This document shows, in pieces, positions 13,684 through 51,979 of a DNA stretch of 64,000 nt (positions are counted from its first letter, which is position 1; each line of letters opens with the position of its first letter). The notes under the pieces are model-generated. The model did not search any database, was not told the origin of the DNA, and was given only the letters and a program-made list of their open reading frames with translations. The stretch is from a virus. The translations under genes and the position numbers were made by a program. Where the stretch lies: the IMG/VR virus record IMGVR_UViG_3300042691_024284, positions 1 to 64,000 of that record. One strand, given 5' to 3'.

Positions 13684-14913
13684 TTAATATCCTTCTGTCC
13701 AATAAAGGAGTACGGCTCCGTCGCCGCCTTTGCCGCTATTTATTGATGCTGAACTATCACTTCGTTGACCAGCACCGCCGCCACCGCCATTCCCACCGGG
13801 TCCCCCGAACGGTGTCGAGCTTGAAACTTGAGCGCCGCCACCGCCACCGCCAAAACCACCCGGACCACCAAATGTTTGAGCGTTACTAGTATTAGCGCCG
13901 CCGCCACCACCACCAAAACCGCCTGGGCCTCCAAATGCAAAATTGCTGCTGCTTTGTGCCCCGCCTCCGCCGCCGCCAAAACCACCAGAACCGCCGTTAG
14001 AATCAAACGATGTGCTTGGTCCTCCGCCGCCACCACCTCCACACAATGCCCAATACGCAAGGTAAGGAGATGCAAGACTTAACCCTCCTTGCGTACTAGT
14101 TGCTACAGGGACGCTTTGACCGCCGCTAGTTCCCACAAAATTTGTTGTTACTCCGCCTCCTGGTCCACCACCATTTCGACCATTGCCATCGCTTGCTGAT
14201 CCACCACCACCGCCCGCACTCGAAGCAGATCCATTTTTTAACCCGCCTCCACCTGAACCGCTTGGCCCTTGAGGCCCAAAACCGCCGCTACCACCAAAAC
14301 CACCCCCACCCGTTCCGTTTTGGCTAGTTGAAGTAGATCCTGCGGGTCCGCCATTTCCCCCATTACCATAAATAGACCCCGCTCCTCCGCCGCCAGTACC
14401 TCTGATATCTGAACCAGAGCTGCTTGAATACCCACCGTAACCGCCAGTAGCGGTATAGGCTTGCCGAAGCCCTCCAGATGCTGTGCCTGTACCGGGACTT
14501 CCGGGTGAAGTACTGTTAGTTATTGACCCACCGCCGCCGCCGGTAGAAGTTAAGAGAGTGCCAAATGATGATGTTCCGCCAGAAGCTCCAGAAGATTGAG
14601 TGCTAACTCGTGCTGCTCCTCCAGCGCCAACAGTAATTGTCGGCAACACCTGCCCTGGAACTACATCAATAATGCCTTGAGCGTAACCACCGCCATCACC
14701 CCCGCGAGCATATTGACCAGAATAACTACTACCAGCACCGCCAGATCCACCAGCACCCCAAACGCAAACCATAATTTGATACACGTTTGCTGGAACAACA
14801 AAGTCGTTATACGTACCCGCAATAACATACGGGCGGCAATTAGTCCAAGCAGCAGGCGCTACACGGGTTGCATAGTTAGGCGGCAACCCAAAGCCGTACA
14901 TTCCCTTGTTCAT
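13684..14913 (-). CDS. Glycine-rich tail-fibre-type protein
   Basis: A 409-residue protein that is almost entirely a glycine-rich domain: after a ~35-residue start it reads NVYQIMVCVWGAGGSGGAG and continues with Gly/Ser tracts to a short hydrophobic end (VLLYWTEGY). The domain type matches the C-terminal part of the gene at 11638-12903, so these are likely alternative or cooperating receptor-binding components. Confidence 0.75.
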   Translation of the reverse strand: MNKGMYGFGLPPNYATRVAPAAWTNCRPYVIAGTYNDFVVPANVYQIMVCVWGAGGSGGAGSSYSGQYARGGDGGGYAQGIIDVVPGQVLPTITVGAGGAARVSTQSSGASGGTSSFGTLLTSTGGGGGSITNSTSPGSPGTGTASGGLRQAYTATGGYGGYSSSSGSDIRGTGGGGAGSIYGNGGNGGPAGSTSTSQNGTGGGGFGGSGGFGPQGPSGSGGGGLKNGSASSAGGGGGSASDGNGRNGGGPGGGVTTNFVGTSGGQSVPVATSTQGGLSLASPYLAYWALCGGGGGGGPSTSFDSNGGSGGFGGGGGGAQSSSNFAFGGPGGFGGGGGGANTSNAQTFGGPGGFGGGGGGAQVSSSTPFGGPGGNGGGGGAGQRSDSSASINSGKGGDGAVLLYWTEGY

Positions 14914-51544: not shown

Positions 51545-51686
51545 AAACCCTTTTGTCGAAGCTAAACGCCAGGAGCTGGCCATAGCTATGACTAAAAAGA
51601 TGATCAACGAGGCCATCAAAGACGGCAAAGGCCTAGCAAAAGAGCGTGATGCAATGAAGGGCCAAAAACCTAAAGATTCTGCATAA
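51510..51686 (+). CDS. Small basic protein
   Basis: A 58-residue Lys-rich protein (MKIPKNLLTPFKNPFVEAKR...). Its stop codon lies inside the promoter motif at 51676-51690. The ribosome-binding site is weak, so coupling to the previous gene is likely. Confidence 0.6.
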   Translation: MKIPKNLLTPFKNPFVEAKRQELAIAMTKKMINEAIKDGKGLAKERDAMKGQKPKDSA

Positions 51687-51690
51687 GTAG
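51676..51690 (+). promoter_or_regulatory. Phage promoter motif (TGCATAAGTAG class)
   Basis: ATTCTGCATAAGTAG overlapping the stop codon of the previous gene; the transcript would begin with the structured leader at 51689-51742 and continue through the signal-peptide gene and the tmRNA-like RNA. Confidence 0.7.
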
Positions 51691-51742
51691 GTGTAGGCAC
51701 GTCGGGAGACGTCCCGCAGGCCGGGTGTAAGCCCCGGCACCT
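51689..51742 (+). ncRNA. tRNA-like structured leader
   Basis: AGGTG (51689-51693) pairs with CACCT (51738-51742). Inside are ACGTC-GGGA-GACGT (51699-51712) and CCGGG-TGTAAGC-CCCGG (51721-51737). The last arm has the 5-7-5 geometry of a T-arm joined directly to the closing stem, and its loop agrees with TTCRANY at five of seven positions, so the whole resembles a miniature armless tRNA. It may be a processing signal or regulatory leader of the downstream gene. Confidence 0.5.
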
Positions 51743-51763
51743 ATTAAATTAAGTGAGGAAGCT

Positions 51764-51898: not shown

Positions 51899-51979
51899 GG
51901 GGTTGGAATAGTTTCGACGTGGGCCAAGGCCTAAGCGGCAACCTTGCGGACCTGGGTGCGATTCCCAGCAACTCCACCA
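51899..51979 (+). ncRNA. Minimal tmRNA-like RNA (tRNA-like domain only)
   Basis: 81 nt. The acceptor GGGGTTG (51899-51905)/CAACTCC (51969-51975) has a G3-U70 pair (51901 with 51973), discriminator A and encoded CCA, the alanine identity set. The 5' part GAATAGTTTCGACG matches the tmRNA signature (E. coli ATTCTGGATTCGACG). The T-arm CTGGG-TGCGATT-CCCAG with GGAC before it aligns base for base with the tmRNA 3' end. Only ~30 nt (including CAAGG/CCTTG) replace the ~280-nt mRNA-like and pseudoknot domain, and no tag ORF is visible. An attP copy of ssrA is an alternative, but both ends are present. Confidence 0.8.

Follow-up and report, generated by a model that had tools for sequence, protein, structure and literature searches.

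The 64,000-nt stretch of DNA analysed here (the window; positions 1–64,000 of the IMG/VR virus record IMGVR_UViG_3300042691_024284, 64,758 bases in full) encodes at 51899–51979, on the + strand, an 81-nt RNA that corresponds to the tRNA-like domain (TLD) of tmRNA without its message part. This RNA, designated mini-tmRNA, belongs to a large and diverse RNA class that is widespread in unrelated phages. As to its role, we consider it probable, at roughly 60%, that the phage RNA, alanylated and bound to SmpB, would replace the host tmRNA on stalled ribosomes without adding a tag.

Identification and anatomy of the mini-tmRNA

In the cmscan search, the window RNA matched the tmRNA family RF00023 with 53.3 bits (E 3.8e-18; gathering score 47), and the tmRNA model was its best match within the tRNA/tmRNA clan. 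The match spans model positions 1–374, both model ends included, with 19 nt standing for about 312 model positions. Its identity as a tmRNA TLD lacking the message part is firm and agrees with the initial annotation, which had read the RNA in this way and had suggested scoring it with tmRNA covariance models. The 5' signature indicated there, the D-region motif UUUCGACG, is indeed in place at 51912–51919. No anticodon, tag ORF or mRNA-like domain with resume codon and pseudoknot was found in the window RNA, either in its sequence or by cmscan, so that the reduced middle without resume codon or tag ORF also stands; that middle is however not empty, as P2, a helix of at most 8 bp, and a small P3 hairpin lie in it. 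The RNA reads GGGGUUG-GAAUAGU-UUCGA-CGUGGGCC-AAGG-CCU-AAG-CGG-CA-ACCUUGCG-GAC-CUGGG-UGCGAUU-CCCAG-CAACUCC-A-CCA. Its acceptor (GGGGUUG/CAACUCC) forms 7 of 7 pairs, G3-U70 included, A73 and CCA are encoded, and the T-loop is the unusual UGCGAUU instead of UUCGAUU. The features, all on the + strand, are the following:

51899–51979, +: mini-tmRNA, tRNA-like domain only, 81 nt (RF00023 53.3 bits; family model R1 79.7 bits, a score high by construction, the window being among the R1 training sequences)
51899–51905, +: 5' strand of acceptor stem P1, GGGGUUG, with G3 at 51901 (G3 in at least 108/108 plus 23/23 valid relatives; P1 covaries)
51906–51917, +: D-region GAAUAGU-UUCGA, without D-stem and with A instead of G18 (from sequence; A18 and G55 co-occurring in the L016 type as well as in the window lineage)
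51918–51925, +: predicted P2 helix, 5' strand, partner 51941–51948, the two innermost pairs unformed in the window (covarying among 52 relatives, with double-sided changes at 7 of the 8 pairs)
51930–51938, +: predicted P3 mini-hairpin occupying the site of the mRNA-like domain, with an A-rich internal loop flanking it (72% of cells paired; weakest helix)
51941–51948, +: predicted P2 helix, 3' strand (covariation)
51952–51968, +: T-arm CUGGG-UGCGAUU-CCCAG (T-stem paired in 100% of alignment cells)
51969–51979, +: acceptor 3' strand CAACUCC with U70 at 51973, A73 at 51976 and encoded CCA at 51977–51979 (from sequence; 0 valid RNAs in the V70 control scan)

Distribution of the family

IMG/VR was scanned with a pattern that required the D-region, the T-arm and the acceptor and allowed a short middle only; it returned at least 120 matching loci. 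A locus was taken as structurally valid when at least 6 of 7 acceptor pairs, a P2 helix and a T-stem were present, and 108 of 120 among the matches listed (74 unique) were valid by this definition. A second scan, aimed at genes in which CCA is not encoded, brought 23 further valid loci, of which 17 are unique. The search in related phages advised by the initial annotation was therefore productive, with at least 108 plus 23 valid IMG/VR loci in addition to phage isolates. At 88% identity, the unique sequences of the scan 1 matches listed, taken together with the phage isolates, fell into 47 clusters. Of 50 records tested, the cyanobacterial genome described below among them, 48 gave an RF00023 score above cut-off.

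Lengths cluster at 62–86 nt across the family. A scan for longer middles (46–76 nt), which ran to completion, gave 22 matches, about three of them valid (90, 112 and 116 nt), longer forms being thus rare; these intermediate-length relatives (L393, L389 and L385, respectively) have a longer inner arm. Of 78 unique inner regions, only 17 contain a GCN-to-stop frame, and such frames are not conserved. A UAA in the loop, considered as a built-in stop "resume codon", was rejected since it occurs in only 48 of 78 unique sequences, the conserved feature being AA and not UAA.

Among isolate phages, the Streptomyces phages LuckySocke, BRock and pSt2308 carry an unannotated mini-tmRNA in their tRNA arrays, as does, with a weaker match, Streptomyces phage Alone3. 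By BLAST, Streptomyces phage GiJojo has a 78-nt sequence identical to that of LuckySocke, lying under a gene called hypothetical, and a further unannotated copy is carried by Stenotrophomonas phage Jojan60. Current annotation misses the class: ARAGORN called neither a tRNA nor a tmRNA at the window RNA, and in most isolate records the locus has no annotation. The presence of the RNA in phages of laboratory hosts (Streptomyces lividans, Stenotrophomonas) makes testable why phages would target or rewire rescue, and whether charging is needed.

In 84,980 bacterial and archaeal species genomes, 87 pattern matches were obtained and two were accepted (L144 and L157). The second is a Prochlorococcus single-cell contig that equals the IMG/VR viral contig L066 in length and has the same RNA at the same position. 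The first (L144:7186-7269, − strand) lies within a tRNA array of cyanobacterium FACHB-471, a genome that also has a full tmRNA and SmpB.

Controls and alanine identity

A decoy pattern with scrambled D-region (TTGCAC) gave 0 structurally valid RNAs in 120 matches, against 108 of the 120 listed for the real pattern, and its matches were mostly short and of a tRNA-Ala-like kind. A chance match and a tRNA-Ala are both ruled out by the decoy and the structural filter; the window RNA also lacks a D-stem and an anticodon arm with a 7-nt loop.

Position 3 was never imposed by the search patterns, and G3 was found in 108 of 108 valid scan 1 loci listed and in 23 of 23 scan 2 loci, that is in at least 131 loci. 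When A, C or G was required at position 70 (V70 control), only 8 matches and 0 valid RNAs were retrieved. In the 52-sequence alignment, the acceptor pairs 5-68 and 6-67, near G3-U70, vary freely. Together these results indicate selection on the alanine identity pair as such, the main argument that charging matters. On this comparative evidence the alanine identity proposed by the initial annotation is real and under selection.

Comparative support for the fold

Folding of the window RNA as a single sequence was no better than that of shuffles (z -0.31). The proposed fold is supported instead by comparative data: a covariance model (R1) was built from 14 sequences and 52 sequences were aligned with it. 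Standard pairs filled 92.2% of pair cells versus 66.1% in shuffles, and changes on both sides of a pair were seen in 319 cells versus 100 in the control. The covariation score was 0.654 versus 0.158 when shuffled and at most 0.102 in slid controls; the alignment being fitted to the structure, these figures lean towards it, and the effect size is given by the slid controls. According to the alignment, P1, P2 and the T-stem are firm, and P3, with 72% of cells paired, is weaker. In the usual layout P2 is followed by an A-rich internal loop and then by P3, and in the shortest forms (62–68 nt, e.g. L023) P2 is capped by a plain hairpin. The elbow nucleotides of D-loop and T-loop and the GGA linker are conserved across the family. 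A18 accompanies G55 both in the lineage of the window and in the L016 type, which would be expected of a D/T elbow that is maintained. When an origin of the inner arm was sought in the E. coli tmRNA, several segments were equal in score, with no clear source.

The covariation bears also on the idea that the mini-tmRNA is a decaying relic of a phage full-length tmRNA. Full-length tmRNAs do exist in phages, as do a few forms of 90–116 nt, but compensatory changes, invariant identity elements, clustering of lengths at 62–86 nt and 47 divergent clusters all oppose it; relics would lose pairing, and covariation refutes this extremely improbable reading. A two-piece or permuted gene with the mRNA-like domain elsewhere is unlikely: P2 is a self-closing, covarying helix, and the phage records gave no further standard tmRNA that passed the cut-off (the permuted model was run on some of them only). 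ARAGORN made full-length tmRNA calls in L041, L089 and L119; those in L041 and L089, on inspection "tag not identified", were judged artefacts.

Conservation and genomic neighbourhood

The RNA is 96–98% identical in close relatives while the flanks fall to 72–88%. In L095 and L040 it is 97.7% identical, with flanks at 83–88% and the adjacent intergenic sequence replaced; in L020 it is 96.3% identical, with flanks at 72–77% and a compensatory change from U6-A67 to C6-G67.

The 3' ends of ssrA genes are common integration sites, and the locus might in principle be an attP site or a captured fragment of host ssrA. Some phage BLAST hits are probably ssrA integration sites (cluster K phages, PMC10865867). 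In the mini-tmRNA, however, both acceptor halves are present and the 5' half is complete, the RNA co-varies and stays conserved while its flanks change, and no tyrosine integrase (PF00589) was found in the window record and one in 49 records tested. The attP site beside an integrase, named by the initial annotation as what would overturn it, is thus refuted, and we leave this reading practically no weight.

Upstream in the window, a 44-aa signal-peptide-like ORF has its stop codon abutting the first base of the RNA; on the 3' side are a 62-aa ORF and then a terminase-small-subunit-like gene, 230 bp downstream of the RNA. This last position would fit a role outside ribosome rescue, for example as replication primer, packaging signal or alanine donor. 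In other phages, though, the neighbours are completely different (terminase large subunit, DnaB-like helicase, DNA ligase, endolysins, phosphatase, tRNA arrays), and the retained features are tmRNA-specific, making such a role very unlikely. An ARAGORN call was found within 2.5 kb at only 25 of 116 loci, a few being artefactual tmRNA calls, so that most copies lie outside tRNA arrays.

Relation to known systems

An RNA of this kind is already known, from phage DS6A and from mitochondrial and plastid forms. The statement of the initial annotation that no phage equivalent was known does not hold, since the TLD-only tmRNA of mycobacteriophage DS6A precedes it (Mao et al. 2009, as cited in PMC4131195 and PMC11915505). 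By its description in these papers, the DS6A RNA shares with ours a one-piece, non-permuted TLD without tag CDS; it is a single case, against a family in many unrelated phages with a P2-P3 arm and strict G3-U70. The CDS-less standard-form tmRNA was so far a curiosity with one phage case reported in the account of PMC11915505 (DS6A), and the 2025 tmRNA database has only 9 "standard, no CDS" among 97,179 entries (PMC11915505).

Mitochondrial tmRNAs without tag CDS (jakobids, oomycetes; RF02544) show the same loss of the mRNA-like region and use SmpB from another genome, but they are organellar and usually permuted. The CDS-less plastid tmRNAs of Mallomonadaceae, about 65 bp (PMC11915505), are by their described size similar to the shortest phage forms, and belong to plastids, not phages. 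The engineered TLD (2CZJ; 4ABR), about 63 nt with P2 capped by a tetraloop, has the same layout as the 62–68 nt phage forms such as L023 (PMC3929946), yet is man-made. Full-length tmRNAs of phages Bongo, Wildcat and Melnitz are phage-encoded and include a TLD like the mini-tmRNA, but keep the message domain. The searchable papers, most subscription journals lying outside the search, gave no account of how broadly the RNA occurs, of its P2-P3 arm or of the constraint on G3-U70.

Proposed mechanism

The mini-tmRNA would probably be transcribed as part of a longer phage RNA, from which the RNase P of the host releases it; the host AlaRS would then recognise G3-U70 and alanylate it, and SmpB and EF-Tu, likewise of the host, would bind the product. 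A search for SmpB gave no match in the window record or in 49 phage records (some of them fragments, in which absence is no proof), so that the host protein would be needed. The complex would enter stalled, mRNA-vacant ribosomes instead of the host tmRNA and could accept the nascent chain, with no degradation tag following for want of a resume codon. Release, alanine tailing and drop-off are candidate outcomes after peptide transfer. Overall, the phage would in this way, presumably to its benefit, compete with trans-translation in the host.

Such competition by an alanylated RNA is favoured by published TLD biochemistry together with the inhibition reported for DS6A. SmpB binding is known for an engineered TLD made of 25+34 nt with a UUCG link (PMC3929946), and a crystal structure has the alanyl-TLD-SmpB-EF-Tu complex entering stalled ribosomes (PMC3968760). 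The DS6A RNA, as summarised in PMC11915505 and PMC4131195, inhibits the endogenous tmRNA in E. coli, which by analogy speaks for interference with trans-translation in the host. In mycobacteriophage Wildcat, no lytic gene is more highly expressed than the full-length tmRNA (PMC7474061), making strong expression of a phage tmRNA plausible. Against competition, U55G in the window T-loop could weaken elbow contacts, though the D-loop changes alongside.

The main rival is that the RNA merely titrates host SmpB, with charging irrelevant and no action on the ribosome needed. It is the main one because the tmRNA inhibition by the DS6A-like TLD RNA is reported, in the account of PMC4131195, whether or not the RNA is chargeable, perhaps by SmpB titration, a result that fits a plain sponge equally well; the elbow contacted by SmpB is also conserved. 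A sponge, however, would not need the alanine pair, and G3-U70 is present in all of the at least 131 valid loci with V70 versions absent, for which reason we regard titration alone as unlikely.

A different use of charging would be for Ala-RNA-SmpB to act repeatedly on a ribosome, adding one or several alanines without a template and then freeing it, resulting in tag-less recycling or alanine tails. Strict conservation of G3-U70 is compatible with it, and polyalanine was obtained in vitro from a TLD fragment and SmpB in the absence of mRNA (PMC3929946, citing Shimizu and Ueda 2006). That synthesis is however an in vitro observation, and no RF-1-domain release factor (PF00472) was found in 49 records, the window record included, a result by which a phage release factor was also rejected as partner; we hold this explanation to be quite unlikely. 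More broadly, and as a low-odds suggestion, many phage lineages might run a message-free rescue with a stand-alone Ala-TLD RNA and host SmpB, untemplated alanine replacing the tag; if true, trans-translation would here be rewired by viruses to run tag-less or with alanine tailing. The spread of this kind of RNA over unrelated phages suggests that many viruses interfere with or rewire the host rescue of stuck ribosomes.

Other elements in the window and in related records

A second conserved structured element (GUAGGCACGUCGNGAGACGCCC...GGCCGGGUGNAAGCCCCGGCACC) was observed at window 51685–51745, directly upstream of the mini-tmRNA, and is kept in six relatives (L020, L035, L036, L072, L095 and L247); in L020 and L036 it stops about 6 nt short of the mini-tmRNA. 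Against Rfam it gave only an insignificant match (Twister-sister, 11 bits, cut-off 34). An ARAGORN tRNA-Ser(act) call at window 14392–14483 (− strand), where the Rfam tRNA model is below cut-off, is probably spurious. The Rhizobiales sRNA Atu_At1 gave repeated sub-threshold matches (27–31 bits, cut-off 60) in window-type phages (L035:333-429, L020:12969-13065 and L072:1118-1213). Pistol ribozymes were seen near phage tRNA/tmRNA genes (L216:1142-1198 and L157:1621-1716), and in Tunturiibacter phage Tunturi_4 (L215:418-1179) an RF-1-domain release factor gene lies directly upstream of a permuted tmRNA.
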